Under the pieces are notes generated by a model. That model was not told the DNA's origin and did no database searches. It saw only the letters and a list, made by a program, of their open reading frames with translations. From assembly GCF_963675165.1 (NCBI RefSeq), contig NC_087390.1, forward strand, positions 1,569,501-1,633,500: a DNA stretch of 64,000 nt, in the 5' to 3' direction. The DNA is from Halichondria panicea. Its lineage: Eukaryota; Porifera; Demospongiae; Suberitida; Halichondriidae. Both the position numbers and the translations under genes were made by a program. Shown here piece after piece: positions 6,926 to 58,600 of this stretch (position 1 is the stretch's first letter; the number at the start of each line of letters is the position of its first letter).

Positions 6926-9900
6926 ATGAAGATGACATCTCAGAGACATGCCCGTTATCTCTCAATTGATCTGGACAACGATGTTACCCTGGTTTTCCGT
7001 AAGCCTAGTTGGCAGCTCAGAGCCAGCCTTGCCTCTGTGTTGATCACCCCTGTCCTCTACCAACTCTACCTCATTATGGTCACCATCAGATACATACTCT
7101 TCTTACAAACTTTTTCCTGTGAGTCAGTGAAGCATACTCACCAATAATTGCATAACATTTCTTATCATACACTTTTGGTATAATTTTACAGAGCATTATT
7201 ACGGGGCATAGGCCACTAAAGATCAGTTGTAAACAGCCATTAGTGCATTGCTTGGTATTCACGGAATGACCACAATTGTGATTTCATATATTTTACATTT
7301 TACGTATAAAATTATGTGTACTTTCTAGTCTCGCGGACTGAAAGAGAGTCTGGCCAATTTCACCGCAGAGTTGTGTTGACCTATGCCACAAATGTCGTGG
7401 TGCTCTAAGTGGTTGATAAGTGTTTGACTGTAGTAAGTTGTGAAACTGCACAGCTGCAGGCTTAGCTTTAATTATATGGTTTCACATGCACATCCGTCCT
7501 CTAACCACTAACCACTTATCAATGCAAACAGCCACTTAGACAGCTGCACAACACAAGTAGCTCATGTGTAATTTGCCAGACGATATGATATATCGGCTGG
7601 TCCACGAGACTAAGTTACAGCTACATGTGTATTTATAGTTAAACGTAGATAAGAGTAAAAGTGTTGAACTGCTAGTAACAGCATTTGCCCTGTATTGGTC
7701 ACCACTTGATAGTCATCAGTACTAATTAGCAATACTTCCCAGAACAGACCACAGTTTACTCAAGAACACTTAACAGTTTACTCAACTGAATGTTTTGCAG
7801 TATCGAACTTTATGTGTAGAAAATAAAATATGGACACTACTCCAGCTTTATATTGTAGGTGCTTATGCTAATCTGGGTGTGGCTACTTCGGGGTTTATTG
7901 TATCACGTGGCGAATGAAGAAGAAAAGTTAATTGTATGTTTTACTCTTGCATACATGCAGAGGTGGAAGCATTCTTGGTGCACTACTTACTGGTCAACAG
8001 AGATCTAGGAAGCTAGAGAGTGTCACTGTGCTAGTTTGTAGTAGTCTACCGTAGAAACTGGATTATTAGCGCTTACTCGACTATACAGAGCATAATTATT
8101 ATACGGGGCATAGGCCACAATGTAATTATACTTAAAGGGTCAGTTTTAAATACCGTATAGAGGGTGATTTTTGTGGGACAACATATTTTTGGTTTTCCGT
8201 GGTTGAAGGTCTGAATGAATATATTATCCATGAATGAAGCGACCTTGCCTACCTTTGCAAGTTCAACCACGAAAATATTACCTATGAAATGTCTTAATAA
8301 TTATTGCTGAACCACAAATATTTTGTCCCCCGAAAATTACCCGCTATACAGTAGGCATTAGTGCATTGCTTGGTATTCACGGAGTCATGACCACAATTGT
8401 GATGTCACACCACATGAATATATTTATGCAACTCTACACAGCTCCCCCACGTCCTGCTTGCCCTGTGGTTGACTTGAGTTGGACTGGAGTGTTTCCTTGT
8501 GAGCTGGGATGGAGGGGGAGTGCACTGGCCGTTCTCATTATGTCAGCTGTGCTTATCACCTGCTACTCACTCATCACTGCCTGCTTGGTGAGATGGAACC
8601 CTCGGAAACAATGGAACTCAACCACATCAGGTAATCAATTATATATTTACTGCTACAATAATTATAAACGTCACTCTTACTTTTTAGTTTTTGATACTCA
8701 AGAAAAGCCGACCAAGTTCCAAGTGAGAGTTCAGAGCACTAATCGACTGATGTTGCCCCCCACTCTCAGTCTGTGTATACTGTTACTGATATTCCGCTTA
8801 CTGTTACAGTCAGGAGATGTTGAAGCAAACCCTGGACCAACGCTTAGTAAGCAGTGTCTCAGTCTTATGTATGTATATAATGTACAAGTTGCTCCAGCTA
8901 TTTTATAGAACATACATGCACGAACCATGTGTACGACATTGTACTTATTATTTGTTTTGTAGCCTCAATTCTGACTCTCCGTGATTTGAATTCTGTTTAC
9001 AAGAACTTGATAAAAGCCGCTGGAAACTGGTTCAACTTGGGACTTGATCTGGGATTAGGCTTTGACATCCTTAATAATATCAGTGATAAACATCGAGACA
9101 ATCAAACCTGTCTACGTGACATGATAGCTGCTCGCTTGAAGACTGGCCCTCTTACCTATTCTGAAATATGTCAGAGTCTCAGAGCATCAACAGTTGATCG
9201 AAATGATGTCGCTGAGGCTATAGAGGGGACATGTACAGGTATGAATAGTAGCATTTCTACTGCAGCCTATAAAGAATGTAACTATGAATAGTCATGAGGA
9301 TAACTTAGACCACGATAACTATCTATAATTATTACCACAGCCTAGAGCCAGAAATGTAATTTGTTCAATCGGACAATTGTTATAGCATCCAATTACTTAC
9401 TTTCAGATGAGGATACTTCACATATGAAGCCGAAATTGTCCACAACGACTCCTGAACCAACCAGTGAGTTAGCTAATCGGTAGTTTATGTGGTGATATAG
9501 AGGCATTTGTTCATGTAAGACTTTGACTTTTGGATTTCTGTGCATTTTTTTTTATAAGAAAGGTTGGGCTCAGGCACATTTGTTGTATTTCTCACTGTTT
9601 ACTTAGTTTGGAGGGTCCATTATTGAAGATTCCACTGTATTATTACCTTCACTTCATGATTATTCTTTTATACTGTAGAATCCAAATCCGATAATCGTTC
9701 CACCATCCAACCAGATGAAGCAATAGGAATTTATCGATCATACTTAACTAGTATTTACGATACAAGATCCCTCCCTGCTGATGACAAATATCCTCTCCAG
9801 TGCGTTAAGCATTTTGTTAACCTAACATGTGCTGATGTAAGTAAACATTTATCCAGAGAGGAAATCAAAGAGTCTTGGTCAGAAATAGTTCAAGGCAAGC

Positions 9901-12788
9901 TGGATAAATTTCCAAGAGAGAGAATCACAATGGACCAGATAGTTTCCAAAGTAGAGGGCAAATTCTCTAAACTAGTTGTCATTAAAGGGGCTCCTGGAGG
10001 AGGTAAGACGACTTTGTCATGGGAGCTGTGCAGACGATGGGCTAATGGTGAAGTTTGGACAGAGTACTCCCTCGTTGTATTGCTCCGACTTCGAGATGAG
10101 AATATTCAGGAAGCTGTAGAATTAGTCGATCTATTTCAATGTGAAGATACTGATGATTCCAAAAGTGTTTATTCTATTATCCGAAAGAACCATGGGCAGG
10201 GCATACTTTTCATTTTGGAAGGCCTGGATGAATTGACACCATCCCTTAGAGAAAAAGACTCCATATTTATGAAGCTAATAACCGGACGTCTTCTGCCAGC
10301 TAGTACCGTTCTTGTTACCACTAGGCCCTGGGCTGTATGCGATCTACCTGTTACTTGTAGCTCAAGAGTTGATCAGTTCATCGAAATCTTAGGTTTTTCT
10401 GGCGAACAAATTAAAGAGTACATTGATCTAATGATCAAAAATCGAGAGGCTCCACCAGAACTACGTGAATACATTAACTCTAATCCACATATATCTAGTG
10501 CAATGTATAACCCTCTTCATGCCAGAATTGTAGTTGATGTTTACAAAAAAAATTGTCACAAAAAAAGCAGCGTCTTTCCTAGCACAACAACTGAACTATA
10601 CACTGCATACTGTCAAGTTTTAATTGAAAGATATTTACATGACAAACCAGAGAGTGATTGGAGTGACGAGCTTAGTGAGTTACCTTGGTCACTTCAGGTA
10701 CATTTTGATAAACTCTGCCAAATTGCGTACAATGGAATAACAAAAGAAAAACAACAGTTGGTTTTTTTCAAGGAAGATGTTGTTGATACTAACACACTTG
10801 GATTCATGAACAGTGTACATCCTTTATATAAGAAAAGCAACAGTTCTCCATCTTACAATTTCCTTCATCTAACACTTCAAGAGTTCCTCGCTGCATTTTA
10901 CGTCTGGAAAAATAACACCCCACACGAGCAGTTGATCTTGTTTGAAACAAAGACTGATGATGGATCATACAAGATGATTCTATTGTTTTTAGCTGGATTG
11001 ACTAAACTGAATGACCCATGGACACAGTGTGTACTTTCAACTCCTTTTGTGTACTATGAGAAAGGATCGTCAAAAGCCGAGAGAATGTGTAGTAGATTCT
11101 CAAGTGATCGAATTCTTTGGATCTATGAAAGCCAAAATGTGCAAGCCATGAAGGACATGTATTGTAATGTGCTGTATATACTACTGCTATATTATGAGAC
11201 AATTGATCATTTTGCACTTGGTTATGTTGTAGCTTCTGCTCATTTCAAAGTAACTGTAATGGACATGTTCACGTTTAATGAAAATAATGTGGATGGATCA
11301 ATGATATTAGCAGGAATCAACAAAGTTTTGCCTTCTTTTACTCTAAGTGTAAGGCATCTGACAATGTCTACCACATTCAAGATTCCATCTGCTTGGCATA
11401 CACTCACTGATAGGATACTACCAGAATTAGAAAGCGTCACTATCAGTATTGACGATATATTTGATGGGCCTGAGGTTCCATGTACATTAAAAATATTTGA
11501 CACTATACAGCTATCTCCAAACTTAAGTGTTGTAGAGCTAGATTTTGGCATCTCAAGAGACACTGTGATACGAATACTTGATATTTTGAAGCCAAAACAC
11601 TGCTTGAAAGTTTTGAAATGTGCTCAAGTATCGCCAGCTGATGAAGAGTTGTTGTCTGACTTCATTGCACATTCTAGTATTGAAATGTTGGTGATACATT
11701 TGGTTCGAGCGCTTTCTATTGGTACCTCACCCATCACAGATGCTAAACATTGGTGTATTTCAATTGAATTGAACGTGACTGAGTTAAAAAGGAACAACAC
11801 GAAAATCTTGCCACATTTGCTGTCTGAAATTTCATTTACCAATAACGATCCAAGAAGAATGTTTACAAAAAAAGAGTCAAAAACCAAAAACTTAATTTCA
11901 ATATTAAGCCACTGGAAACTAAGCTTACAATATCTGCGATGCTCTTCCCATCTTCACTTGACTCCCACACAATCTGAGCAGCTTTTTAGTACTCTACTCA
12001 ATTGTCCGATACTTAAAGAACTCGATATCCAAAGTGAAATAAAGGGCCGATTTGAATATTTCTGTACCCCCCTGCAGCACTTGCAATCACTAACTTTGGA
12101 TTGTCGTGATAATGCCTGTGAAGTTTTACGTTCTCTCAAAGACAATCGATTACATTCCATTAAAAGCCTTAAACTGATATGTAACTTTGACTGCTTTTTT
12201 GATGAAGCTATTGGTGAGTATCTACAGACTGACACATCTCTAGAGGAATTGACACTGCATTATATTGATTTCGAAAGTAGCCCGAGTCATTTAGAGCAGG
12301 GACTGCAAGTTAACACATGTCTAACTAAGCTAACTATTTTACCTCATATTAGTTATGATGAATCGCTTGATTATGATTATGGTTTCGAAACGGTTGAACT
12401 GGCCCAAATGTTTCATACAACTCTACAATTCATTGAACTTATGTTTTGTAAGCAGTTTCCACCGGATCTACTACCCGTTTTGGAAGCATTGGGAGAAAAC
12501 AATACAGTTAAACACCTGAAACTCCGTCTGTGTGTGCCACCATTAGAACATTTTATACCGTACACTGTTACCACTGAAGAGGCTGAAGCTGTTGGTAATG
12601 TGTTAGCCAAGAACAAGACTCTAGAGGTGTTTTACCTCAATGTTGAGATCATTGAGTGCTCCCCAATTGTCAGGGGGCTGTTTGAAAACAAAACACTGAA
12701 ACAATTCGGCACTTCTAATAATACAAAAAAAAACATTGTCACATGTCCCGAGTACATTGATGTCAGACAAAGAATTGTGTTTATTTAG
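6926..12788 (+). CDS. NLR1: leader-2A-Death-NACHT-LRR receptor
   Basis: An intracellular NOD-like receptor; the family senses microbial or danger signals and oligomerises through NACHT. Exons 6926-7118, 8442-8630, 8688-8846, 8963-9238, 9407-9463 and 9679-12788 join in phase 1 throughout to give 1327 residues. Residues 1-177 form a leader with hydrophobic spans near 32-62, 90-113 and 152-168, ending in the 2A motif at 171-178. A Death-fold domain follows (about 182-272; NWFNLGLDLGLGFDILNNI). A Ser/Thr/Pro linker exon comes next, then NACHT with Walker A GAPGGGKTT (395-403) and Walker B ILFILEGLDEL (467-477). The C-terminal third carries degenerate LRRs such as NNTVKHLKLRL and NKTLEVFYL. The start ATG has ACC before it and is conserved in all copies. 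Intron 1 holds two small transposons. The first base of exon 4 makes Thr where the sisters have Gly after the 2A exon. Ligand unknown. Confidence 0.9.
7326..7612. mobile_element. Small inverted-repeat element, TAGTCTCG ends
   Basis: Ends TAGTCTCGCGGAC and GTCCACGAGACTA are inverted copies, with further matching inside (GTCTGGCCAATT against AATTTGCCAGAC). Size is 287 bases, inside intron 1 of NLR1 and absent from the same intron of NLR4. I see no clear target duplication. The ends resemble those of the element at 29739-30490. Confidence 0.6.
8151..8353. mobile_element. MITE, TACCGTATAG-end family
   Basis: Left end TACCGTATAGAGGGTGATTT; right end AATTACCCGCTATACAGTA in inverted orientation. 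It lies in intron 1 of NLR1. The flanking phrase GTGCATTGCTTGGTATTCACGG occurs on both sides of the 7.29-8.36 kb segment, so this intron also grew by a local duplication. Confidence 0.55.
8798..8839 (+). other. 2A-like ribosome-skipping motif of NLR1
   Basis: Reads LLLQSGDVEANPGP in frame at the end of exon 3. It matches the full 2A consensus D-[VI]-E-x-N-P-G-P, with a hydrophobic/amphipathic helix before it as active 2As have. Skipping would occur between Gly177 and Pro178. All four NLR copies carry it unchanged. Confidence 0.88.
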
Positions 12789-13112: not shown

Positions 13113-13253
13113 CTATTGCATGTTCACAAAGTTCTGGATGAGGTTGAGTGCTCTCTCCGGCTGGTCAAACGGGAGAATGTGCCCACCCCCTCTCACGACC
13201 ACCTGCATAAACTTGTTCACTGTCCTCACACACCCGGCAACATCATCTCCTAT
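13113..13253 (-). pseudogene. CPVL-like serine carboxypeptidase, last exon only (copy 1)
   Basis: Coding on the minus strand and convergent with NLR1, 325 bases beyond its stop. The reading contains VVVRGGGHILPFDQPERALN, the C-terminal catalytic-His segment typical of vertebrate CPVL (S10 family). The acceptor has moved so that three residues (VWK in the other copies) are missing at its start. No other carboxypeptidase exon is found before the ODAD2-like relic begins, so this is a single stranded exon rather than a gene. Confidence 0.7.
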
Positions 13254-13261
13254 CTGTGAAG

Positions 13262-14735
13262 GGAGAAATGTGTGTGTGGGGGTTAGGGTTAAGGTTAACC
13301 CGAACATAACAAAATTAGAAACTACTTTAATGTGTGTGTGTGTGTGTGGGGGGGGCCGGGTGAGAACAAGAATATGTGTGTGTGGGGGGGGGTGAGAACA
13401 AGAATATGTGGGTGTGTGTGGGGTGGGGGTGAGAACAAGAAATGTGTGTGTGTGGGGGGGGTGAGAACAAGAAATGTGTGTGTGTGTGGGGGGGAGGGAT
13501 GAGAACAAGAAATGTGTGTGCGTGTGTGGGGGGTGAGAACAAGAAATGTTTGTGTGTATGTGTGTGGGGGGTGAGAACAAGAAATGTGTGTGTGTGTGGG
13601 AGGGGGGGGTGAGAACAAGAAATGTGTGCGTGGGGGGGGGGGGGTGAGAACAAGAACAGTTTGTGTGCATGTGTGTGTGTGTGGGGGGGGTAAGAACAAG
13701 AGATGTGTGTGTGTGTGGGGGGGGGGTGAGAACAAGAAATGTTTGTGTGTATGTGTGTGGGGGGTGACAACAAGAAATGTGTGTGTGTGTGGGGGGGAGG
13801 GATGAGAACAAGAAATGTGTGTGTGTGTGTGTGGGGGGTGAGAACAAGAAATGTGTGCGTGGGGGGGGGGGTGAGAACAAGAAATGTGTGTGTGTGGGGG
13901 GGGTCAGAACAAAAATGTGTGTGTGTGTGTGGGGGGTTAGAACAAGAAATGTGTGTGTGTGTGTGTGGGGGGGGGGGTGAGAACAAGAAATGTGTGTGTG
14001 TGGGAGGGAGGGATGAGAACAAGAAATGTGTGTGTGTGTGTGTGGGGGGGGGGGAGAACAAGAAATGTGTGTGTATGTGTGTGTGTGGGGAGGGGTGAGA
14101 ACAAGAAATGTGTGTGTGCGCGTGTGGGGGGTGAGAACAAGAAATGTGTGTGGGGGGGGTGAGAACAAAAAATGTGTGTGTGTGTGGGGGGGGGGGTGAG
14201 AACAAGAAATGTGTGTGTGTGTGTGGGGGGGGGGGGTGAGAACAAGAAATGTGTGTGTGTGGGGGGGGGATGAGAACAATAAATGTGTGTGTGTGTGGGG
14301 GGTGAGCTAGAACAAGAAATGTGTGTGTGTGTGTGTGTGTGGGGGGGGGGGGGTGAGAACAAGAAATGTGTGTGTGTGTGGGGTGAGAACAAGAAATATG
14401 TGTGTGTGTGTGGGGTGAGAACAAGAAATGTGTGTGTGTGTGTGTGTGTGTGGGGGGGTGAGAACAAGAAATGTGTATGTGTGTGTGTGTGTGTGTGTGT
14501 GGGGGGGTGAGAACAAGAAATGTCTGCGTGTGGGGGGGGTGAGAACAAGAAATGTGTGTATGTGTGTGGGGGGTGAGAACAAGAAATGTGTATGTGTGTG
14601 TGTGTGTGTGTGGGGGGGGGGTGAGAACAAGAAATGTCTGCGTATGGGGGGGTGAGAACAAGAAATGTGTGTATGTGTGTGGGGGGGGGGTTAAAACAGG
14701 AAATGTGTGTGTGTGTGGGGGGGGGGGTGAGATGT
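13262..14735. repeat. GT/G-run minisatellite, long array
   Basis: About forty units of 28-45 bases, each built as GTGAGAACAAGAAATG, then (TG)n, then a run of 4-12 G on the + strand. It sits where the last intron of the carboxypeptidase relic would be. Long open frames across it on both strands (HTHT/PP/FLVL and CVCVGG) are by-products of the repeat. The G-runs could form quadruplexes. Confidence 0.95.
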
Positions 14736-14740
14736 ACAAA

Positions 14741-14970
14741 GTGGGTCCTCACTGAACACTAGTTAACCACTAGTCCTACAGCTGTGTACCCAGTGGGTCC
14801 ACATTGTACACTAGTTAACCACTAGCCCTACAGCTGGTTACCCAGTGGGTCCACACTGAACACTAGTTAACCACTAGCCCTACGGCTGTGTACCCAGTGG
14901 GTCCACATTGTACACTAGTTAACCACTAGCCCTACAGCTGTGTACCCAGTGGGTCCACATTGTACACTAG
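14741..14970. repeat. About 62-base tandem repeat, nearly four copies
   Basis: Unit contains ACACTAGTTAACCACTAG, then CCTACAGCTG, then TACCCAGTGGGTCCAC, with two alternating variants (CACTGAACAC and CATTGTACAC). It directly adjoins the minisatellite. No coding sense. Confidence 0.9.
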
Positions 14971-22012: not shown

Positions 22013-22830
22013 ATGTCACCCTCGCAAAGTTCGCAAATGTTTGATTCTCGCAAAACATTCTAGGTAAACAAAGCATCAAGAATTCTCTGTTCTGACTGGC
22101 ATTAAATCTGCACTGAAGAAGTAAGCTTCAACCACAACATTGAATCTTGGAGCTGGCACAGTTGGTCTATTCTTGACAGAACCATGAAGATGACATCTCA
22201 GAGACATGCCCGTTATCTCTCAATTGATCCGGATGATGATGTTACCCTGGTTTTCCGTAAGCCTAGTTGGCAGCTCAGAGCCTGCCTTGCCTCTGTGTTG
22301 ATCACCCCTGTCCTCTACCAACTCTACCTCATTATGGTCACCATCAGATACATACTCTTCTTACAAATTTTTTCATGTGAGTCAGTAAAGCTACTCACCA
22401 ATAATTGCATAACATTTTTTATTTAATATACACTTTGGTGTAATTATACTGAGCATATCACGGGGCATAGGCCACAATTATATACTTGAAGGACAGTTTT
22501 AAACAGCCATTAGTGAGTGCCGTATCCATGCAGTTAGGGGCTCATTGTGCTCACGTACCTAAGCTCAACAGTAACTTACTGGATAGCTGGGAGCTGTATG
22601 AGCCTGAGCCTGCATTGCACTAGAGCTATAGCTAGCTAGCTAGCAAGAGCTTTTATACTGCGGATTTCACGGAGACCACACCTTCATGCATGCAGATATC
22701 CAAGGTTCCTGTTTTGTGACAGCATGCTCTATAATTTTATTCACCCAAGTTACAACCATCACCAGCAGAGGAGCAGAGGGCCTGATCACACTACCTGAAT
22801 AATTATACAATGGGTTTGATAGCCTGATTT

Positions 22831-23435: not shown

Positions 23436-24698
23436 CTAGCCACCACGTGTGCTCAGAAGTGTAAAGGTCAACAATTAGCATTGGTCATGCTTCTATAAAT
23501 ACTTTCTACCAAAATTTGATAAAAATTGCCTAATAGGCTAATATTTTTTGCCTATTAGGCTGGCATAATGCTCAATGCTCCACGCTAGCATAAAATTGGG
23601 CAAGCTCTTACTATAGCCTATAGTGAGAGCACAATGATATACTAAAACCATTGTATTATTAAAGACAGCATGCAGTACGATTACACAGAAAAATCGACTG
23701 ACAAGACTATGTCTTCTGCACATAAGTGATACACTGTGAAAAATACCTGTAAATATTGACTATTGTTCCCTGTAATGTGCAGTAAAGCGTGGGCGTAGGC
23801 GGAATCCAAACATTTCGCGCTATTCCGCGACCTGAGCACCCTCGTACCATTATTCCTAGAAAAACTTGGTATACAGAGACTCTCGTTAATTCGGTCACCC
23901 TTGGGACCATGCAGCTTGGCCGGAATAGCGAGGTGGCTGCAGCTCAGGAAATAGCCACAGCTTATACCTCGAATCTAATGACTACTTTTGCGGTTCTTGT
24001 CTCGAGAATAATGTAGGATAATGTTCTCTATTTAAGTGTAATCCAATTTTATTTGCTAAACCACACCCAAAATGTCATATCCGGCCGTAATATACGTATA
24101 AAATTACATAGAAAACCTTGTTTGGGACAGCCAGCACTGGCCGGTAAACGGAATAGCGAGTGGCCGTACTTCAGGGTGATTTTTGTGCAGTAAACATATA
24201 GCTAGCATTCCGTGCAAAGCCAAATGGCCGGTATATCGAGGTGGCCGTACTTCAAGAGCCGGAATAGCTAGAGTCTACTGTACATGGAATCTCATGACCA
24301 TCCACAATAGTGATGTCACAGCACATGAATATATTTATGTAACTCTACACAGCTCCCCCACGTCCTGCTTGCCCTGTGGTTGACTTGAGTTGGACCGGAG
24401 TGTTTTCTTGTGAGCTGGGATGGAGGGGGAGTGCACTGGCCGTTCTCATTCTGTCAGCTGTGCTTATCACCTGCTACTCACTCATCACTGCCTGCTTGGT
24501 GAGATGGAACCCTCGGAAACAATGGAACTCAACCACATCAGGTAATCAATTATATATTTACTGCCACAATAATTATAAACGTCACTAGTTTTTGATACTC
24601 AAGAAAAGCCTACCAAGTTTCAAGTGAGAGTTCAGAGCACTAATCGACTGATGTTGCCCCCCACTCTCAGTCTGTGTATACTGTTACTGATATTCCGC

Positions 24699-24740
24699 TT
24701 ATTGTTACAATCAGGAGATGTTGAAGCAAACCCTGGACCA
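24699..24740 (+). other. 2A-like ribosome-skipping motif of NLR2
   Basis: LLLQSGDVEANPGP in frame at the end of exon 3, protein-identical to the other copies although the receptor is frameshifted downstream. Confidence 0.85.
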
Positions 24741-27700
24741 ACGCTTGGTAAGCAGTCTCTTTATGATGCATATAAAATTAAACTATGTGTATGCCATTGT
24801 ATTTAGGCTCTATTCTGACTATTGATGATTTGAATTCTGTTTACGAGAAACTGTTAGAAGCCGCCGAAAACTGGTTCTTCCTGGGACTTTCCCTGGGATT
24901 AGGTCATGGCACCCTCAAGAATATAACAGATGACTATCGCGGGAACAGGAAATATCTATGTGAAATGATAGCTGCTCGCTTGAAGACCGGCCCTCTCACC
25001 TATTCTGAAATATGTCGGAGTCTCAGATCACCAACAGTTGATCGGAATGATGTCGCTGAGGCTATAGAGGAGGCATGTACAGGTATGAATAGTCATGAGG
25101 CTAACATCAATGGATAGTTCACAACCTACCTAGTCACGAACGTATGTACTTCATAGCATCCAATTACTCACTTTTTCAGATGACGATACTTCACCTGGGT
25201 CATCTAAGAGGAAAAAATTATCCACAACGACTCCTGTACCAACTAGTAAGTTAGCTAATCTGTAGTTTATGTGAGTGGTGATAGAGTAGGTACATCTCAA
25301 GGATTGCTGTGATAAAAGCGGTTTGTGCATTGCTCAGGTTTTGAGGGCCAATTATTTGAGATTCTATTACTCGCTTCATGAATATTTTAGTATTTATAGT
25401 TTATTCTTTTATTATAGAACCCAAATCCGATGATCGTTCTACCATCCAACCAGATGAAGCAATAGGAATTTATCGAGCATACTTAACTAGTATTTATGAT
25501 ACAAGATCCCTCCCTGCTGACGAAAAATATCCTCTCCAGTGTGTTAAGCATTTTGTTAACCTAGAATGTGCGGATGTAAGTAAACATTTATCGAGAAAGA
25601 AAATGGAAGAGTCCTGGTCAAAAATAGTTAAAGGCGAGCTGGATAGATTTCCTAGTAAGAGAATCACAATGGATCAGATAGCTTCTAAAGTAGAGGGAAA
25701 ATTCTCTAAACTAGTTGTCATTAAGGGGGCTCCTGGAGGAGGTAAGACGACTTTGTCATGGGAGCTGTGCAGACGATGGGCTAATGGTGAAGTTTGGACA
25801 GATTACTCCCTCGTTGTATTGCTCCGACTTCGAGATGAGAATGTTCAGAAAGCTGTAGAATTAGTTGATCTATTTCAATGTGAAGATACTGATGATTCCA
25901 AGAATGTTTATACTATTGTTCGAAAGGATCATGGGCAGGGCATACTGTTCATTTTGGAAGGCTTGGATGAGTTACCACCATCCTTTAGAGAAAATGATTC
26001 CATATTTATGAAACTAATAACCGGACGTCTACTTCCAGCCAGTACTGTGCTTGTTACCACTAGGCCCTGGGCTGTGTGTGAACTACCTGTTACTTGTAGC
26101 TCCAGAGTTGATCAGTTCATTGAAATTTTAGGTTTTTCTTCCAAACAAATTCATGAGTACATTGATCTAATGATCAAAGATGGGGCTCCACCAGGACTAC
26201 GTAAATATATTGACTCTAATCCACGTATCTCTAGTGCAATGTATAACCCTCTTCATGCCAGAATTGTAGTTGAAGTTTACAGAGAAAACCACGAGAATAG
26301 CAATAGCATAATCCCCAACACAACAACTGAACTATACACCGAATACTCTCAAATTTTGATTGAAAGATATTTAGACAGTGATTGGAGTGGTGAGCTTAGG
26401 GAGTTACCTTCGTCACTTCAGGTACATTTTGATAAGCTCTGCCAAATTGCGTACAATGGAATAACAAAAGAAAAACAACAATTGGTTTTCTTCAAGGAAG
26501 ATGTTGTTGATGCTAGCACTACACTCGGATTCATGAACAGTGTACACCCTTTATATAAATCCACAAAGAAAAGCAACAGTTCTCCATCTTACAATTTCCT
26601 TCATCTAACACTTCAAGAGTTCCTCGCTGCATTTTACATCTGGAAAAACAACACCCCACACGAGCAGTTGATCTTGTTTGAAACAAAGGCTGATGTTGGA
26701 TCTTACAAGATGATTCTATTGTTTTTAACTGGATTGACTAAACTGAATGACCCATGGACGCAGTGTGTACTTCCCACTCCTTACTTGTACTATGAGAAAG
26801 GATCGTCAAAAGCCGAGAGAATGTGTAGATTCTCAAGGGATCAAATTATGTGGATCTATGAAAGCCAAAATGCGCAAGCCATGAAGGACTTGTATTGTAA
26901 TGTGCTGTATGAACTACTGCTAGATGATCCGACAGTTGATCAGTTTGCACTTGGTTATGTTGTAGCTTCTGCTCATTTCAAAGTAACTCAAATGGACATG
27001 TTCGAGTTTAATAAAAGATATGCTTTTGATGTGGATAGATCAATGATATTAGAAGGAATCAACAAAGTTTTGCCTTCTTTTACTCTAAGTGTAAGGCATC
27101 TGAAAGTGTCTACCGCATTCAGGATTCCATCTGTTTGGTATACACTCATTGATAGGATACTACCAGAATTAGAAAGACTCAGTTTTGGATCAAGAGATAT
27201 TGACGATAAATTTGTTGGGCCTGAGGTTCCATGTCCATTAAAAATATTTGACACTATACAGCTATCTCCAAACTTAAATGTTTTAGAGCTAGATTTTGGT
27301 ATCTCAAGAGACACACTGTGATACGAATACTTGATATTTTGAAGCCAAAACACTGCTTGAAAGTTTTGAAATGTGCTCGAGTATCGCCAGCTGATGAAGA
27401 GTTGCTGTCAGACTTCATTGCACATTCTAGTATTGAAATGTTGGTGATACATTTGGTACATTCGAGCGATCTCTTCACAGATACTGATGATTGGTGTATT
27501 TCAATTGGATTGAACGTGACTGAGTTAAAAAGGAATAATACAAAAATTGTACTGTCTAAACATTCATTTACTATAAAAAGAATGTTTTCAATAGAAGATA
27601 TTAAATACCTAATTTCAATATTAGGCCACTGGAAACTAAGCTTACAATATCTGCGATGCTCTTCCGATGTTAAGTTTACCCCCGGACAATCTGAGCAACT

Positions 27701-29714
27701 ATTTAGTACTCTACTCAATTGTCCGATACTTAAAGAACTTGATATCGAAAGTGAAATAAAGGGCCAATTTGAATATTTCTGTACCCACCAGCACTTGCAA
27801 TCACTAACTTTGTCTGGTCCTGATAATTCCTGTGACGTTTTACGTTGGCTTAAAGACAATCGATTACATTCCATTAAAAGCCTTAAACTGATATGTAACT
27901 TTGACTGCTATTTTGATGAAGCTATTGGTGAGTATCTACAGACTGACACATCTCTAGAAGAATTGTCACTGCATTACATTGATTTCAAAAGTAGCCTGAG
28001 TCATTTAGTGCAGGGACTGCAAGTTAACATATGTATAGTGAAACTAATGATTTTACCTGATATTACTATTACAAGGGCCTTAGATTATGATCTCGGAATG
28101 CTTGAACTGGCCCAAATGTTTCAACTTAATACAACTCTACAATTCATTGAACTTACGGTTGATATGCATTTGCTAATGGATCTACTACCTGTTTTGGAAG
28201 CATTAAGAGAAAACAATACAGTTAAACACCTGAAACTCCATCTGTATGACCTTGCGCTACAATTCGCTGGGTACATCCCTATAAGAACAACGTACACTGT
28301 TACCACTGAAGAGGCTGAAGCTGTCGGTAATGTGTTAGCCAAGAACAAGACTCTAGAGGTGTTTCACCTCAATGCTGAGATCACTGAGTGCTCCCCAATT
28401 GTCAGGGGGCTGTTGGAAAACAAAACACTGAAAGAATTCAGAATTTCTAAGGATATAAAAAACAACGTTATCATATGTCCCGAGTACGTTGATGTCAGAC
28501 GAAGAATTGTGTTTGTGGAGATCCCTTTTTATGGTTAACATGTAGCGGTTAATGACTCTTGTTTAGTAGTCTAGTGTTATAATTGTTAATAGTACTAGTA
28601 CTGAAATACACAATGCGTATAATTAATTATAATTATATGTAAGCTTAATTCCCGATATTGGTGGCTATCTTATAATTATAATTGTACAGTAGGCTCTCGT
28701 CCGGTCACCCTTGGGACCTGCTAGCTTGATATCATAATTACTTCACAAAACTCGCCCTTATAAGCAGTCACTTCGCTATCCTGGTCATGCAGTTGTAATT
28801 ATATGCAGTATTATTTTTTTTGTACCATAATTATTATATTCCTTCAAGTCAAGAACAGTTTATATATTTACTGTTCTCATGCAGTCGCTTCGTTGATTTG
28901 GCATAAAATTATAATCTTCTCTTCAATTCTTCTAGTTTTGTTTTTATACTTGAAGCATGATCATTTCCAGACAACATAATTATAATAGGCTATTGCATGT
29001 TCACAAAGTTCTGGATGAGGTTGAGTGCTCTCTCCGGCTGGTCAAACGGGAGAATGTGCCCACCCCCTCTCACGACCACCATGCAGCTCACATACCCGGC
29101 AACATCATCTCCTATTTTCCACACCAGTCCTGTGAAGGGGAGGAATGTGTGTGTGTGTGGGTGTGTGTAGGTGTGGTGAGAACATAAATACAACCTTTAA
29201 TTTACTTGACAAAATGCACACGCAGGGAAGCTCTAAACAAAACAATAATAAAACGGAATTATCCACACACCATAACGGGAGGAGAGGACATTGTATCACT
29301 ACTGAGGCCATTATGTATCAGTACTTTATTGCACTCTCGTTTCCAAGGACCATTTCCACATCTTCAGACTGAGAGCCATAGCCGACGTGAATGGCTCGTC
29401 TGATGTCAGTGGTGTTGATTGGTGTTGATGAAGGGAACGTAGTAGTTAAAATCAGGGGAGGCTGGGCGAATAAGAAATATTGCATGTGAAGAACTGTCTG
29501 AACCCTTTAACCGCCACGGGCCCACGATCGTGGCCCGCAATAGTAACTTTTTTGCGAAATTCTAATTCTGCGATACTTAGGAAGTAGCTCGAACTACGCA
29601 CATCCCTGTATAGAGGAAGAGCTGTAGAATCACGTGCAATTTAGTCTAGAATTTTCCAAGCCACGTTGCTATGTTAAAATTTCATTAGCATCTTACCGCA
29701 CGAAGTTTATAGCT

Positions 29715-35818: not shown

Positions 35819-38800
35819 ATGAAGATGACATCTCAGAGACATGCCCGTTGTCTCTCAATTGATCTGGACGATGATGTTACCCTGGTTTTCCATAAACCTA
35901 GTTGGCAGCTCAGAGCCAGCCTTGCCTCTGTGTTGATCACTCCTGTCCTCTACCAACTCTACCTCATTATGGTCACCATCAGATACATACTCTTCTTACA
36001 AACGTTTTCCTGTAAGTCAGTGGGAAGCATACTCACCAATAATTGCATAACATAACTTGTCATAGAGTAGAGAAATTTGGAGTTGTATGCTTGTGTTGAC
36101 AGAGATACTGCAACAGTTTGTTAATTGACTAAATTTAAGTGTGGGTGCCAAGTAAAATTCATTGTTAAAACAAGAGTAACTGTATATAGGCAGAATTATA
36201 TACTAGGCAGAATAATCACTATAATTATTTTATTATCAGATATTATGTTAGAACAGCCAATTAAGGTTAAAATTAATCACTAGCAATGGTGTCACGTAAT
36301 ACCCCCCTGTCTCATAATACCCCCTGTCTCCCCCTATCTCATAATACCCCCCTGTCTCATAATACCCAAACCACTTTAAACACTAAATTAATGCTAGCAT
36401 TAGCTGCAAACAAAGCACTGTCACTAATGTTTTTGCTTATTATGCAGACATAATTATAACAATGCATATTGACCATAATTATAGTAGTTAGTGAACAGGT
36501 TATTTAGCTGATTACTGCAAGACATTAACTGGTCAGAAACATTAATTTTATAGAGGTCTCATAATACTGACTTGTACTCTACTCATATTACGGGCTACAA
36601 TTACACTTAAGGAACAGCCATTAGTGTATTGCTTAATTGGTATTCACGGAATCTCATGACCCACAATTGTGATGTCACATGCAGCACATGAATATCATTA
36701 TTTATGTAACTCTACATAGCTCCCCCACGTCCTGCTTTCCCTGTGGTTGACTTGAGTTGGACCGGAGTGTTTCCTTGTGAGCTGGGATGGAGGGGGAGTG
36801 CACTGGCCGTTCACATTCTGTCAGCTGTGCTTATCACCTGCTACTCACTCATCACTGCCTGCTTGGTGAGATGGAACCCTCGGAAACAATGGAACTCAAC
36901 CACATCAGGTAATCAATTATATATTTACTGCCACAATAATTATAAACATCACTCTTATTTTCTAGTTTTTGAAAAGCCGACCAAGTTCCAAGTGAGAGTT
37001 CAGAGCACTAATCGACTGATGTTGCCCCCCACTCTCAGTCTGTGTATACTGTTACTGATATTCCGCTTACTGTTACAGTCAGGAGATGTTGAAGCAAACC
37101 CTGGACCAACGCTTGGTAAGCAAATGTCTCTTTATGTATGCATATAAAACTTGTATTAAACCATGTGTATGCCATTGTATTTTTGTTTTTGTTTTTTGTA
37201 GGCTCTATTCTGACTATCGATGATTTGAATTCTGTTTACGAGAAATTGATAGAAGCCGCTGGAAACTGGTTAGACCTGGGACTTTCCCTGGGATTAGGTC
37301 ATAGCACCCTCAGTAATATAAAAGATGAACATCGAGACAAGAACCAAACCTGTTTACGGGAAATGTTAGCTGTTCGCTTGAAGACTGGCCCTCCACTCAC
37401 CTATTCTGACATATGTCGGAGCCTCAGAGCACGAACAGTTGCACGGAATGATGTCGCTGAGGCTATAGAGGAGGCATGTACAGGTATGAATAGTGATGAG
37501 GTTAACCTCGACCACACTATAACTGTAGATAGAATTAGTATACTTATACGTAACTATATGTAGTTACCGCAGCCTAAAGCCAGGAATGTAATTTACTATT
37601 ATAATACTTCAATAGGACAATTTTATCCAATTACTTACTTTAATTTAGATGAGGATACTTCACCTGGGCCACCTATGAAGCCAAAACTGTCCACAACGAC
37701 TCTTGGACCAACCAGTGAGTTAGCTAATCAGTAGTTTGTGTGAGTGCATGGATTGAGAAAAGGCAATCTCAGGATTACCGCGCATTTTTAAAAATATATA
37801 TTTCCACAGCGACTCCTAGACCAACCAGAAGTTAGTTAATTGGTATAGTTTGTGTGATAGAGTATGTAAGAAAATTTGGGATAGAATTATACAGTACTGT
37901 TTGGAGTCGCACTCTTTTAACCTATATACGTACGTAGTGTACTGAAGATTCCACTATAATTATTGTTTATCATTCGCTTCATGTTTATTCTCAGAATTCA
38001 AATCTGATAATCGTTCCACCATCCAACCAGATGAAGCAATAGGAATTTATCGATCATACTTAACTAGTATTTACGATACAAGATTCCTCCCTGCTGATGA
38101 CAAATATCCTCTCCAGTGTGTTAAGCATTTTGTTAATCTAGAATGTGCAGATGTAAGTAAACATTTATCGAGAAAGGAAATTAAAAAGTCTTGGTCAGAA
38201 ATAGTTCAAGGCGAGCTGGATAGATTTCCTAGAGAGTCAATTACAATGGACCAGATAGCTTCCAAAGTAGAGGGTAAATTCTCTAAACTAGTTGTCATTA
38301 AAGGGGCTCCTGGAGGAGGAAAGACGACTTTGTCATGGGAACTGTGCAGACGATGGGCTAATGGTGAAGTTTGGACAGATTACTCTCTCGTTGTATTGCT
38401 CCGACTTCGAGATAAGAATGTTCAGGAAGCTGTAGAATTAGTTGATCTATTTCAATGTGAAAATACTGAAGCTTCCAAAAATATTGTTGCTACTACTATC
38501 ATACAAAATCATCATGGGCATGGTATTCTTTTCATTTTAGAAGGCCTGGATGAGTTGCCACCATCCCTTAGAGAAAATGACTCCATATTTATGAAGCTAA
38601 TAACCGGACGTCTTCTGCCAGCTAGTACCGTGCTTGTTACCACTAGACCCTGGGCTGTATGTGATCTACCTGTTACTTGTAGCTCAAGAGTTGATCAGTT
38701 CATCGAAATCTTAGGTTTTTCTTCCGAACAAATTCAAGAATACATTGATCTAATGATCAAAGATGGGGCTCCACCACAACTACGTGAATATATTGACTCT

Positions 38801-41143
38801 AATCCACGTATCTCTAGTGCAATGTACAACCCTCTTCATGCCAAAATTGTAGTTGAAGTGTACAGAGAAAACCATGAGAATAGCAATAGCATAATCCCCA
38901 ACACAACAACTGAACTATACACCGAATACTCTCAAATTTTGATTAAAAGATGTTTAGAGAATGATTGGAGCGATGAGCTTAGTGAGTTACCTTCGTCACA
39001 TCAGGTACATTTTGATAAGCTCTGCCAAATTGCGTACAATGGAATAACAAAAGAAAAACAACAGTTGGTTTTTTTCAAGGAAGATGTTGTTGATGCTAGC
39101 ACTACACTCGGATTCATGAACAGTGTACATCCTTTACATAAGAAAAATAACAGTTCTCCATCTTACAATTTCCTTCATCTAACACTTCAAGAGTTCCTTG
39201 CTGCATTTTATGTCTGGAAAAATAAAACCCCACACGAGCAGTTGATCTTGTTTGAAACCAAAGCTCATGATGGATCATACAAGATGGTTCTATTGTTTTT
39301 AGCTGGATTGACTAAACTGAATGACCCATGGACACAGTGTGTACTTCCAACTTCTTACTTGTACTATGAGGAAGGATCATCAAAAGCCGAGAGAATGTGT
39401 GAATTCTCAAGTGATCAAATTTTGTGGATCTATGAAAGCCAAAATGTGCAAGCCATGAAGGACTTGTATTGTAATGTGCTGTATGAACCACCGCTATATG
39501 ATGATATTGATCAGTTTGCACTTGGTTATGTTGTAGCTTCTGCTCATTTCAAAGTAATTCTAACGGACATGTTTGAGTTACATAATGGTATGGCTATATC
39601 AATGTTATTAGCAGGAATCAACAAAGTGTTGCCTTCTTTTACTCTAAGTGTAAGGCATCTGAAAATATCTACCACATTCAAGATTCCATGTTTTTGGCAT
39701 ACACTCACTGATAGGATATTACCAGAATTAGAAGGAGTCACTATCAGTAGATCAAAAGATATTGACGATGAATTTGATGGGCCTGAGGCATTAAAAATAT
39801 TTGACACCATACAGCTATCTCCAAACTTAAGTGTTGTAGAGCTAGATTTTGGCACCTCAAGAGACACTGTGATACGAATACTTGATATTTTGAAGCCAAA
39901 ACACTACTTGAAAGTTTTGAAATGTACTCGAGTATCGCCAGCTGATGAAGAGTTGCTGTCAGACTTCATTGCACATTCTAGTATTGAAATGTTGGTGATA
40001 CAATTGATACCAGAGTCACCCACAGATTGCTCACTCACCACAGAAACTAATAGTTGGTGTATTTCAATTGGATTGAACGTGACTGAGTTAAAAAGGAATA
40101 ACACAAAAATCTTGCCACAATTACTGTCTAAACATTCATTTACCAATAGCGAAGTAGAAAGGACGTTTATGAGATCAGATGTGATCTTTTCACTGTCTAC
40201 TATGAAAAATTTAATTTCAATCTTAAGCCACTGGAAACTAAGCTTACAATATCTGCGATGCTCTTACCTGGTTCAGTTCACCCCCGCACAATCTGAGCAG
40301 TTTTTTAGTACTATACTCAATTGTCCGATATTTAAAGAACTCGATATTCAAAGTGAAATAAAGGGCATATCTAGATATATCTTTAACCCACAGGACTTGC
40401 AATCACTAATTTTGCGTTGTTTTGATTATGCCTGTAAGGTTTTACATTCTCTCAAAGACAATCGATTACATTCCATTAAAAGCCTTAAACTTATGTGTTA
40501 CTTTGACTGCGATTTTGATGAAGCTATTGGTAAGTATCTGCAGACTGACACATCTCTAGAAGAATTGACACTGAATTTTATTTATTTAAAAAGTAGCCCG
40601 AGTAGCATATGCATGAGTCATTTAGTGCAGGGACTGCAAGTTAACACATGTCTAACTAAGCTAACTATTTCACCTCATCATAATTTTATAATTAATATTA
40701 AAAAAAGGGACTCAGATTATGATCTCAGAACGCTTGAACTGGCCCAAATGTTTCAACTTAATACAACTCTACAATTCATTGAACTTACGGTTGATATGAA
40801 CTTGCTAATGGATCTACAACTCGTTTTGGAAGCATTGAGAGAAAACAATACAGTTAAACACCTGATACTCCGCCTGTATGTGACATCATTTACACCGTAC
40901 GCTGTTACCACTGAAGAGGCTGAAGCTGTCAGTAATGTGTTAGCCAAGAACAAGACTCTAGAGGTGTTTCACCTCGATGTTGAGATCACTGAGTGCTCCC
41001 CAATTGTCAGGGGGCTCTTGGAAAACAAAACACTGAAAGAATTCGGCACTTCTAAGAATACAAAAAAGAACATTGTCGCATGTCCCGAGTATCTTGATGT
41101 CAGACGAAGAATTTTGTTTTTGAACATTACCCCTTTTCATTAA
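35819..41143 (+). CDS. NLR3: leader-2A-Death-NACHT-LRR receptor
   Basis: Exons 35819-36011, 36720-36908, 36966-37115, 37202-37483, 37649-37714 and 37995-41143 join in phase 1 to 1342 residues with no stop. The leader is 174 residues (three fewer than NLR1 at the start of exon 3), then the 2A motif. The Death exon is two codons longer than in the sisters (DKNQTC and GPPLTY). NACHT has GAPGGGKTT and ILFILEGLDELPP. LRR-like segments end the protein. Exon 2 has HILSAV where the sisters have LILSAV or LIMSAV, placing a His in the second hydrophobic span. Intron 5 has a partial copy of the exon 5 end at about 37803-37830 (CGACTCCTAGACCAACCAG) with a ruined donor. The likely EAF partner upstream is broken, while this receptor is open, which argues for selection on the receptor. 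Confidence 0.9.
37067..37108 (+). other. 2A-like ribosome-skipping motif of NLR3
   Basis: LLLQSGDVEANPGP in frame. Predicted products: a 174-residue leader ending in Gly and a 1168-residue receptor beginning with Pro. Confidence 0.88.
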
Positions 41144-41567: not shown

Positions 41568-43663
41568 CTATTGCATGTTCACAAAGTTCTGGATGAGGTT
41601 GAGTGCTCTCTCTGGCTGGTCAAACGGGAGAATGTCCCCACCCCCTCTCACGACCACCTGCATAAACTTGTTCACTGTCCTCACACACCCGGCAACATAA
41701 TCTCCTATCTTCCACACCTGTGAAGGGGAGGAAATGTGTGTGGGGGGGGTGAGAATAAGAAATGTGTGTGTGTGGGGGGGGGTGAGAATAAGAAATGTGT
41801 GTGTGTGTGTGGGAGGGGGGGTGAGAACAAGAAATGTGTGTGTATGGGGGGGGTGAAAACAAGAAATGTGTGTGTGTGTGTGTAGGGGGGGGGGGGTGAG
41901 AACAAGAAATGTGTGTGTGTGTGTGTGGGGGGGAGTGGGGGGTGAGAACAAAAAATGTGTGTGTGCGTGGGGGGGGGGGTGAGAACAAGAAATGTGTGTG
42001 TGTGTGTGGGGGGGGAGGTAAGAACATATACAAAACTAGCAACCTTTAATGAATAATTATCATACTGTAGGTGTACAATGGAGTCACTTGTGTGTAAGCC
42101 TTGAGGTAGGCGTGTCTTCCCGACGTACCTGCAACATGCTCTCCGTAAGGGGAACCCCCACAATGATGTCCAGCTGTCCATTGTACAGGAGCACCTGAGG
42201 GGCTACACTAACAGTCACCACATTATTATAATGCAAAAGAGACCGTTTGTATGTACTAAACAAAGACAATATTCACTCATTATAAGCACACCATAGTATG
42301 ACATTGTACGAAACACTTGAAAACACAATCTTCAGACTGAGAGCCATAGCTGAGACTACCGACGTGAATGGCTCGTCTGATGTCAGTGGTATTGATGAAG
42401 GGAACGTAGTAGTTAAAATCAGGGGAGGCTGGACGAATAAGAAATATTGCATGTGAAGAACTGTCTTAAATAATCAATTTGCATGACCAAAATGTCAGCA
42501 ATTGCCCTCTACAGTTCTTATACTGTAACTAAATTAAATGCAGTGAAACTTGTCTATTGTGGTCAGCCTATAATCAGGTACCCTTTACAATACAGCCAGG
42601 TTAACAAGCTTCAGAGTCTCCATAGCATGTGTTTGAACCAGACCACCTCTTTATTATAGCCACTGTTGGTCTGCCTTTGCAAGGGGTGACAGCTATAGAT
42701 TGGTTTCCTTACACAAGTATACACACAGGGAGAAACCAATCACCCCAGGGCATGACATTTCAACAACACCCTACAATACTTAAGTCAGTGTTTCCCCCAG
42801 TGTACAGTTCAAACAGGGTGGCAGGCTAGACTATGGCTTGGGGGAGGGGCAGCATGTATTACTGCTAATCTTTCTTGCCATTATTTGCCATGCACACAGC
42901 TTCTCAATGTCCTCTAACACAGTACATGACCACAATAGAGATAATTGTATAGTCCAGGACTTCCCCAAATTCAATTAGCTACTCAAACAGGGCCCTTTAA
43001 CCAAACACTGGTTAAGTATGTACCAACATAAGATAAATAATACAGTAGAATGTTCAGTACACTACGTATAGGTAAAAAGAGTATATACCACTCCAAACAG
43101 GACTGTATACTTCTATCCAACACTTTCTGACATACTCTATCAACATACGTGTACCTAGCGAGGTCCTGAGAATGTTGTAGTAGTTGGTGGATCCAGTGAT
43201 GTTGTACAAGTACGTAGGATACGGTATCAGATCTCCGTTGAGCAGAGCATCAAAAATCTGCAACAGTCGGCACAAACATGTTATACCTACTTTGAGAATG
43301 TGAAATGGATTTTGGATGCTGAGCTTCTGTGAATTGGCCACCGAATAAACCGTAACAGCTGCGTTCAGTAATAGCTTAGACAAGCACACAGCTGGCTACA
43401 ATGTTCACTAACTGCTAGGTACTGAACCCTGGTGGACGAGAGGGGGTACGTGATGCACATACATTGTAGTTAGTCAGTGGCTTCAGTAGTTGGTTCCTGT
43501 ACAGGTACTGAGTACTAGAGTTGCCTCTGTGACTAGAGTTCTGATGCTGTGTATAGTGTGTACCTTGAAGCCATCGTAAAACCGTTCAGCTTTGATGTAC
43601 TGCACAGCCGTGTTGGTCCTTGAATAAATGTAAGCGGCTTAGTTCTCGTCAGCCATTCCAAAC

Positions 43664-55630: not shown

Positions 55631-58600
55631 ATGAAGATGACATCTCAGAGACATGCCCGTTATCTCTCAATTGATCTGGACAACGATGTTACCCTGGTTT
55701 TCCCTAAGCCTAGTTGGCAGCTCAGAGCCTGCCTTGCCTCTGTGTTGATCACCCCTGTCCTCTACCAACTCTACCTCATTATTGTCACCGTCAGATACAT
55801 ACTCTTCTTACAAACTTTTTCCTGTAAGTCAGTGAAGCATACTCACCAATAATTGCATAACATTTCTTATCATAATTATACACTTTGGTATAATTATACC
55901 GAGCATATTACGGGACATAGGCCACATATAGTTTATAAAGGTCAGTTTTAAACAACCTTAGTGCATTGCTTGGTATTCACGGAGTCATGACCACACTTGT
56001 GATGTCACAGCACATGAATATAATTATTTATGCAACTCTATACACAGCTCCCCCACGTCCTGCTTGCCCTGTGGTTGACTTGAGTTGGACCGGAGTGTTT
56101 CCTTGTGAGCTGGGATGGAGGGGGAGTGCACTAGCCGTTCTCATTCTGTCAGCTGTGCTTATCACCTGCTACTCACTCATCACTGCCTGCTTGGTGAGAT
56201 GGAACCCTCGGAAACAATGGAACTCAACCTCATCAGGTAATCAGTTATATATTTACTGCCACAATAATCACTCTTACTTTTTAGCTTTTGAAAAACCGAC
56301 CAAGTTCCAAGTGATAGTTCAGAGTACTAATCGACTGATGTTGCCCCCCACTCTCAGTCTGTGTATACTGTTACTGATATTCCGCTTACTGTTACAATCA
56401 GGAGATGTTGAAGCAAACCCTGGACCAACGCTTGGTAAGCGGTGTCTCCTTATGATACATAATGTACACAATGACATTGCTCCTCAGAGAACATGCATGC
56501 ATAAACCATGTGTATGACATTGTGTGCTTATCATTTGGTTGTAATTTTTGTAGGCTCAATTCTGACTCTCGGTGATTTGAATTTTGTTTACAAGAACTTG
56601 ATAAAAGCTGCTGGAGACTGGTTAGACCTGGGACTTGATCTGGGATTAGATCTTGGCACCCTCAAAGATATAAAAGATGAGTGTCACAGGAACAAGGACT
56701 GCTTACGTGAAATGATATCTACTCGCTTGAAGACTGGCCCTCTCACCTATTCTGACATATGTCAAAGTCTCAGAGCACCAACAGTTGCACGAAATGATGT
56801 CGCTGAGGCTATAGAGGAGGCATGTACAGGTATAAATAGTCATGAGGCAACCTCGACCAGCATTTCTATGGATAAATATCAGTATACCACAGCCTAAAGC
56901 GTAGCTTAGATATGTAGGACAATTGTAAGGCTACTAGCAATATAGACCACACTATAAGCATTTCTATGAATAGTTAACAGTACTTAACTATGTGAATGGA
57001 TAGTTCACCTCATCACGAACACTTATATTATCTTTATGTACTTCAGTCAATTGTATATATAATTGTAGCAGATGACGATACTTCACCTGGGCCATCTAGG
57101 AAAAGATTATCCACAGCGACTCCTGGACCAACCAGTGAGTTAGCTAATCGGTAGTTTGTGTGAGTGGTGATAGGGTAAAGGACAAATCTCAGGGATTGCT
57201 GCATTTGTTCATGTAAGACTCCGAAAGTTGCAATTGGTTGTGTGGATAGTGATAGAGTACATTTTTTTGGGGATAGCAGTCGTAATCTTTTTACCTATAC
57301 ACATATATATATACTGTACTGAATATTCTACTGTATTATTTATCTTTCGCTTCATGTTTATTTTCAGAATCCAAATCCGATAATCATTCCACCATCCAAC
57401 CAGATGAAGCAATAGGAATTTATCGAATATACTTAACTAGTATTTACAATACAACATCCCTCCCTGCTGATGACAAGTATCCTCTCCAGTATGTTATGCA
57501 TTTTGTTAATCTAGAATGTGCGGATGTAAGTAAACGTTTATCGAGAAAAGAAATGGAAGAGTCCTGGTCAGAAATAGTTCAAGGCAAGCTGAATAGATTT
57601 CCTAGAGAGTCAATTAAAATGGACCAGATAGCTTCCAAAGTAAAGGGCAAATTCTCTAAACTAGTTGTCATTAAAGGGGCTCCTGGAGGAGGTAAGACGA
57701 CTTTGTCATGGGAACTGTGCAGACGATGGGCTAATGGTGAAGTTTGGACAGATTACTCCCTCGTTGCATTGCTCCGACTTAGAGATAAAAATGTTCAGGA
57801 AGCTATAGAATTAGTTGATCTACTTCAATGTGGAGATATTGATGTTTCTAAAAGTGTTTATACTATTATCCGAAAGAATCAAGGGCAGGGCGTTCTTTTC
57901 ATTTTGGAAGGCCTGGATGAGTTGCCACCATTCTTTAGAGAAAATGATTCCATATTTATGAAGCTAATAACCGGACGTCTTCTGCCAGCTAGTACCGTGC
58001 TTGTTACCACTAGGCCCTGGGCTGTATGTGATCTACCTGTTACTTGTAGCTCAAGAGTTGATCAGTTCATTGAAATTTTAGGTTTTTCTTTGGAACAAAT
58101 TCAGGAGTACATTGATCTAATAATCAAAGATGGGGCTCCAGCAGAACTACGTGAATACATTAACTCTAATCCACGTATCTCTAGTGCAATGTACAACCCT
58201 CTTCATGCCAGAATTGTAGTCGAAGTGTACAGAGAAAACCATGAGAATAGCAATAGCTGCATAATCCCCAACACAACAACTGAACTATACACTGAATACT
58301 GTCAAATATTGATTAAAAGATGTTTAGAGAGTGATTGGAGTGGTGAGCTGAGTGAGTTACCTTCATCACTTCAGGTACATTTTGATAAGCTCTGCCGAAT
58401 TGCATACAAGGGAATAACAAAAGAAAAACAACAATTGGTTTTCTTTAAGGAAGATGTTGTTGATACTAAAACACTCGGATTCATGAACAGTGTACATCCT
58501 TTACATAATAAAAGCAACAGTTCTCCATCTTACAATTTCCTTCATCTAACACTTCAAGAGTTCCTCGCCGCATTTTACATCTGGAAAAATGAAACTCCAC

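Follow-up and report, generated by a model that had tools for sequence, protein, structure and literature searches.

A conserved multi-span leader ending in a StopGo (2A) motif heads NACHT-type receptor genes in a sponge and may be made as a protein separate from the receptor

The window, a 64-kb stretch of DNA that corresponds to positions 1569501–1633500 of contig C14 in a genome of 131 Mb and 39 contigs, carries four tandem NACHT-type genes, all on the + strand (Table 1). In each of them exons 1–3 have GT/AG splice sites and phase-1 introns, and the frame that is open through exon 3 continues into exon 4; in copy 1, exons 1–4 together span 6926–9238. Once spliced, exons 1–3 encode a leader that measures, up to NPG, 177, 177, 174 and 174 residues in copies 1–4, and that ends in LLLQSG-DVEANPG/P (the slash marks the putative skip site). 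These splice and frame models agree with an earlier note on this DNA, which had claimed four NLR copies with a leader of 174–177 residues ending in DVEANPGP, in frame with the body. The note had also described the leader as long and hydrophobic, with two spans in addition to that of the 2A, and the three hydropathy peaks of the copy 1 leader (1.85, 2.28 and 2.17) bear this out.

Table 1. Exons and motifs of the four receptor genes; positions are those of the window.
Copy	Feature	Position	Strand	Remark
1	Leader exon 1: start codon, hydrophobic span 1	6926..7118	+	
1	Leader exon 2: two-cysteine loop CPVVDLSWTGVFPC, span 2	8442..8630	+	
1	Exon 3: basic linker, span 3, LLLQSG-DVEANPG/P	8688..8846	+	
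1	2A/StopGo core motif	8816..8838	+	pattern scan
1	Exon 4, Death-like	8963..9238	+	domain call weak
1	NACHT + C-terminal repeat exon	9679..12788	+	start placed by eye
2	Leader exon 1	22184..22376	+	
2	Leader exon 2	24353..24541	+	
2	Exon 3 with 2A	24589..24747	+	
2	Exon 4, Death-like	24807..25082	+	
3	Leader exon 1	35819..36011	+	
3	Leader exon 2	36720..36908	+	
3	Exon 3 with 2A	36966..37115	+	
3	Exon 4, Death-like	37202..37483	+	
3	NACHT + repeat exon	37996..41143	+	start approximate
4	Leader exon 1	55631..55823	+	
4	Leader exon 2	56048..56236	+	
4	Exon 3 with 2A	56285..56434	+	
4	Exon 4, Death-like	56554..56829	+	

The two receptor bodies that were scanned, those of copies 1 and 3, match the Pfam NACHT model (E 1.1e-19 and 1.6e-20, respectively), and the body of copy 3 also matches NLRP3 chains (E 6e-14). 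The bodies of copies 2 and 4 have 86–88% DNA identity to the scanned copies, from which it would follow that they too are of the NACHT type. In copy 2 the body (window 25360–28538) is not one open frame but two that overlap, of 653 and 428 aa; copy 2 is therefore probably frameshifted, i.e. a broken gene. Long TG/G-rich repeats with stop-free minus-strand frames occur at 13113–14758, 41568–42202 and 46967–47931 of the window, the first two immediately after copies 1 and 3 of the receptor genes.

The body had been described as Death-NACHT-LRR. This description holds for NACHT in copies 1 and 3, but the Death assignment is weak in Pfam and the LRR assignment lacks a model match. Seven of 17 exon-4 sequences met the Pfam Death model (best E 0.0019), with no such match for copy 1 exon 4, and two unrelated models, UBR1-like_wing and PF0610-like_N, were met by 12 (best E 0.0025) and 10 (best E 0.00048) of the same 17. 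A profile built from the 17 sequences reached FADD at E 0.42 only. A wider profile, which includes four hand-picked Death-like additions, reached FADD over nearly its full length at E 0.00046; two of its 17 matches were engineered repeat proteins. No LRR model was matched in the Pfam scan of the bodies of copies 1 and 3, and the LRR label derives from seven L..L.L patterns in the body of copy 3. Since our main reading of the leader and its StopGo motif is independent of the Death label, the weak Death call leaves its probability unchanged.

The motif itself is found at four sites in the window (starting at 8816, 24717, 37085 and 56404) and at none in 100 shuffles. Genome-wide, D(V/I/M)ExNPGP occurs at 116 sites, as compared with 0 for the reversed pattern. 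When the last residue was freed the number remained 116, with P following NPG in 116 of 116 (reversed control, 2), while freeing the first P of NPGP gave 120 sites (reversed control, 3 in all). Among the extra sites listed, two look like chance and one like a decayed member (C5:3029295–3029317), which reads NHGP instead of NPGP and lies inside a cluster of intact 2A sites. At least 12 distinct DNA codings of NPGP were counted by eye among the sites listed. The octapeptide of the window copies conforms to the StopGo core (D/G/C/N)(V/I)ExNPGP, and the hexapeptide before it, LLLQSG in the C14 type and LLLQCG on C2, fits, when compared by eye rather than by motif scan, the published L-rich class that ends in (A/S/C)G before D. 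By sequence, then, the octapeptide and the upstream class are consistent with the assignment of the motif in the earlier note to the StopGo type. An example of L-rich motif 6 is reported to be active in reticulocyte lysate, and a StopGo variant with N at p12, which is present here in L020 and L027, to be >95% active (Li et al., 2026, PNAS, PMC12846837). The octapeptide and, by eye, the upstream hexapeptide class are those of viral L-rich (LLLLSG-like) StopGo; however, viral StopGo belongs to polyproteins, whereas the putative StopGo sites described here lie in cellular immune genes.

We sampled 24 copies of the C14 array, i.e. the four of the window and 20 further copies (L001–L020, taken as 9.8-kb stretches), and ten other places as shorter stretches; L023, L024 and L027, which lie outside the array and have less regular edges, were left out of the 24-copy counts. 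With exon edges as set by BLAST, all seven were GT/AG in 18 of the 24 array copies, and in the other six a shift of one edge by ≤30 nt was needed. After these edges had been reset, no stop codon interrupted the frame between the start of exon 1 and the end of exon 4 in any of the 24 copies. In L014 the regular acceptor of exon 3 is missing and the next AG would serve in its place; L018–L020 and L024 have an alternative exon 1 N-terminus that starts MQW. A P-loop body frame was present in 23 of the 24 copies (missing in L018), and the body frame reached at least 1000 aa in 19. Along the array bodies, dN/dS was ∼0.8–1.0 in the C-terminal repeat region as compared with ∼0.3 around the NACHT part.

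At least 47 places in the genome carry leader exon 2, the core of which reads CPVVDLSWTGxFPC: 37 on C14, seven on C2, and one each on C16, C6 and C7. All 47 lie <700 nt from a 2A exon, so that a leader apart from a 2A exon was not found in the genome; conversely, 11 2A exons of the C14 and C2 leader types had no exon-2 match. No additional exon-2 place that could represent a parent gene emerged when the C2 leader served as query and matches up to E 10 were allowed. In Pfam the leader corresponds to no known family, with weak, scattered matches of which the best, in one member, had E 0.0014. A viral or bacterial origin of the leader was considered; of 21 pattern matches in viral_contigs and 46 in genome_contigs, none was confirmed as a relative. 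As to a retrotransposon origin of the 2A, no transposon protein was noticed by eye in the frame lists of seven of the ten short stretches.

The C2 places belong to a second, tandem family (L022 and L031; C2:7763200–7770000), which carries a diverged leader and 2A at its head. In L022 there are three leader exons and a 2A with the same phase-1 joints as in the C14 copies, followed in order by an exon without a Pfam match, a Death-like part, ankyrin repeats (E 9e-16) and a P-loop frame whose matches to AAA, GTPase and Roc all fall below the cut-off. The Death-like part has no Pfam match in L022, and its L021 counterpart meets Death at E 0.0034, below the cut-off. From order and frame we infer that the leader, Death-like, ankyrin and P-loop parts of L022 belong to one gene. 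A CARD-like reading of the C2 exon 4 had no Pfam match to support it and was dropped. NACHT was not seen in the parts of the C2 family. The leader thus belongs to NLR genes in the NACHT array, as had been claimed, but also heads a Death-like/ankyrin/P-loop family; a search for leaders without an NLR, suggested in the earlier note, showed none away from a 2A exon among the 47 places, but did show the leader ahead of this family, in which no NACHT was seen.

At the places read, 2A sites lie ahead of Death-like immune genes, and some have other leaders. L028–L030 (on C5, C10 and C11) have different leaders in which, as judged by eye, a hydrophobic stretch immediately precedes the 2A and Death-like sequence follows; the parts of L028 and L030 that were scanned first had no Pfam match, and a later part of L028 met Pfam Death at E 0.015. 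An N-terminus MGIxVELWRARIGLF is common to several 2A places (on C11, C5, C10, C4, C3, C12 and others), and in L028 and L030 the leader of this WRARIGLF type ends, by eye, in a hydrophobic stretch and 2A. At C14:1.23 Mb (L032, C14:1231500–1240500), three 2A exons follow partial EHD (dynamin-like) coding sequences that are in frame with them, one of which matches EHD_N (E 2.6e-13) and another EHD4 chains (E 1e-26); the arrangement recurs at C13:6488059. The EHD match also occurs in two frames, of 510 and 462 aa, at ∼10 and ∼50 kb from the EHD-2A exons at C14:1.23 Mb. Five of the six EHD-2A places start in mid-protein, and these loci may therefore be recombination debris.

The comparison of C14-type with C2 leaders bears on constraint. 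Over exons 1–2, six pairs (the first copy of the window, denoted W1, L006, L001, L019, L024 and L027, each with L021 or L022) gave pS 0.62–0.96 and pN 0.16–0.22, values that are rough because silent sites are near saturation and that are not independent because the pairs share sequences. The core of exon 1 had pS 0.86–0.96 and pN 0.19–0.22, and that of exon 2 pS 0.62–0.70 and pN 0.16–0.20. The linker of exon 3 is not conserved between the two types (pN 0.49–0.60), while span 3 with the 2A is (pN 0.26–0.29). Differences between the leaders of copy 1 and L022 numbered 10/7/23 and 9/8/25 at codon positions 1/2/3. Low pN alongside near-saturated silent sites argues, on this comparison of sequences, that the leader is a protein under selection rather than a spacer, and agrees with the suggestion of the earlier note that it may be a protein of its own.

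Within the array the picture is different. Leader pS was 0.057, about a quarter of the exon 4 value of 0.217, and body pS was 0.19–0.33 in 13 of 14 windows along the body and 0.68 in the last, short one. Intron 2 identity was 0.925 and that of bases 1–40 of intron 1 was 0.957 (21 copies), while intron 3 was poorly conserved (identity 0.68–0.72). Low leader pS, together with the uniformity of intron 2 and of the beginning of intron 1, suggests that the leader block, but not the receptor bodies, has been homogenised within the array. Leader dN/dS in the array was 0.72, with edges as set by BLAST and the three copies with the other N-terminus included, and recent constraint on the leader within the array looks weak. 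Homogenisation alone would keep the array copies alike; the array by itself is thus no proof of constraint, and the argument for constraint rests on the C2 comparison.

We propose that exons 1–3 form a leader cassette encoding a three-span membrane protein that ends in StopGo (2A). Translation would start in exon 1, where open frames and splice sites are seen, span 1 would bring the ribosome to the ER and, as the motif and its class suggest, the peptide bond would be skipped at NPG/P. Skipping would free a leader with a hydrophobic C-terminal tail, and the ribosome would continue to make a separate Death-NACHT receptor that starts with Pro. The basic linker of copy 1 has K+R 7 as compared with D+E 2 and the cysteine loop is balanced (2, 2), which suggests a topology with the N-terminus in, the cysteine loop out, the linker in and the tail out; the C2 span count is unsure, because the L022 leader has five hydropathy windows >1.3 rather than three. 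With the tail predicted to be out, an unskipped chain would place the receptor on the lumenal side. Whether the receptor is cytosolic would then depend on skipping, which would have to be efficient. By the time the 2A is reached, spans 1 and 2 should already be outside the ribosome, and for this reason the receptor would be synthesised on ER-bound ribosomes. The weakest step is the role of the leader, most likely that of an anchor, a partner or a guarded sensor that is produced along with the receptor. Overall, we consider it likely that StopGo recoding yields a membrane leader and a free cytosolic receptor from each mRNA.

The available start codons bear on this proposal and on two of its alternatives. 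Exon 3 contains a Met in nine of the 24 array copies, 29 residues ahead of the skip site in copy 1, and lacks one in 15. The first Met of the Death-like exon is residue 53 or 54 in 18 copies and residue 4 in one, and is absent from five. With no Met in exon 3 and a late or absent one in exon 4, translation of those 15 copies must therefore start in exon 1 (or in exon 2 in L001 and L008), provided that exons 1–3 are used. Were the receptors instead targeted as in sea urchin, translation would begin at the exon 3 Met to give a 29-residue signal with 2A, partial skipping would split the receptor between cytosol and secretory pathway, and exons 1–2 would be upstream or alternative. The exon 3 Met, where present, would allow this, and an N-terminal 2A is known to serve as both signal and recoder (Roulston et al., 2016, PMC4981915), but the 15 copies without that Met and the coding selection on exons 1–2 across families argue against it, and we regard it as unlikely. 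In a different scheme, the receptor would be mostly leaderless and start within intron 3, the leader being a separate short transcript or a relic. An in-frame ATG does lie in intron 3, ∼100 nt or less before the Death-like exon, in 17 of the 24 copies; it is nevertheless missing from seven, copy 1 included, in an intron that is itself poorly conserved, and conservation of the 2A motif would be left without a reason. This we judge very unlikely.

The other alternatives concern the motif and the leader themselves. If the 2A were inactive, the product would be a single membrane-tethered receptor with the leader as a plain anchor, and transmembrane parts have been reported in sponge NLRs (PMC12909245). 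An anchor has no need of NPGP, however, yet the P after NPG is kept at every site in the genome, and the predicted topology would place such a receptor outside the cytosol; we consider this quite unlikely. It would be most surprising if exons 1–3 were functionless and alike only through gene conversion or as a mobile repeat. The much lower silent divergence in the leader than in exon 4 of these genes and the existence of local chimeras with EHD fragments are in keeping with such a process, but it does not account for the old divergence between C14 and C2 under strong amino-acid constraint. We therefore retain StopGo recoding into a leader and a receptor as the preferred reading. A broader proposal, which we offer tentatively and with less than even confidence, is that the exons act as a plug-in recoding cassette that supplies one membrane protein per receptor from the same mRNA, on ER-bound ribosomes; skipping would set the side of the membrane on which the receptor lies, NACHT and ankyrin/P-loop receptors would have the leader in common as their partner or guarded sensor, and leaders of the WRARIGLF and EHD types would be swappable before the 2A exon.

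Expanded NACHT genes are reportedly part of the NLR repertoire of the sponge Amphimedon (Yuen et al.). In the sponge Dysidea avara, too, NACHT genes are described as expanded, with Death forms and transmembrane parts to which the Death-like exon and predicted spans here would correspond, and the term ‘2A-like’ is absent from the main text of that report (2026, PMC12909245). NLRs headed by a 2A are already known, from sea urchin: in SpNLR2A, the 2A lies at or near the NLR N-terminus and is also able to act as a signal sequence, 2A was reported in 85 of 241 NLRs, and a 26-residue form was shown both to skip and to target (Roulston et al., 2016, Traffic, PMC4981915). This bears out the statement in the earlier note that sea urchin NLRs have 2A-like motifs at their N-termini. 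The genes described here resemble SpNLR2A in constituting a large NLR family headed by a 2A, but the form tested in sea urchin has its 26 residues at the very N-terminus, whereas here the core ends at residue 177 (copies 1 and 2) or 174 (copies 3 and 4) of a three-span leader encoded by three exons (PMC4981915). Unlike in SpNLR2A, the leader is also common to a second receptor family, although the sea urchin wording, ‘within the N-terminal region’, leaves longer leaders possible (PMC4981915). In the literature searched we came across no description of a multi-span leader that is conserved and common to several receptor families. A long conserved multi-span leader in two receptor families thus seems to be new, provisionally, as the survey of eukaryotic and viral 2A by Rao (2025) may list such genes.

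Cellular coding sequences are said to contain natural StopGo only very rarely (PMC12846837), whereas we count 116 such motif sites in the genome of one animal. If our reading is true, the arrangement would have built into it in what ratio an immune receptor and its membrane partner are made and where they are located, and these genes would lend themselves to testing why an NLR would be made at the ER.
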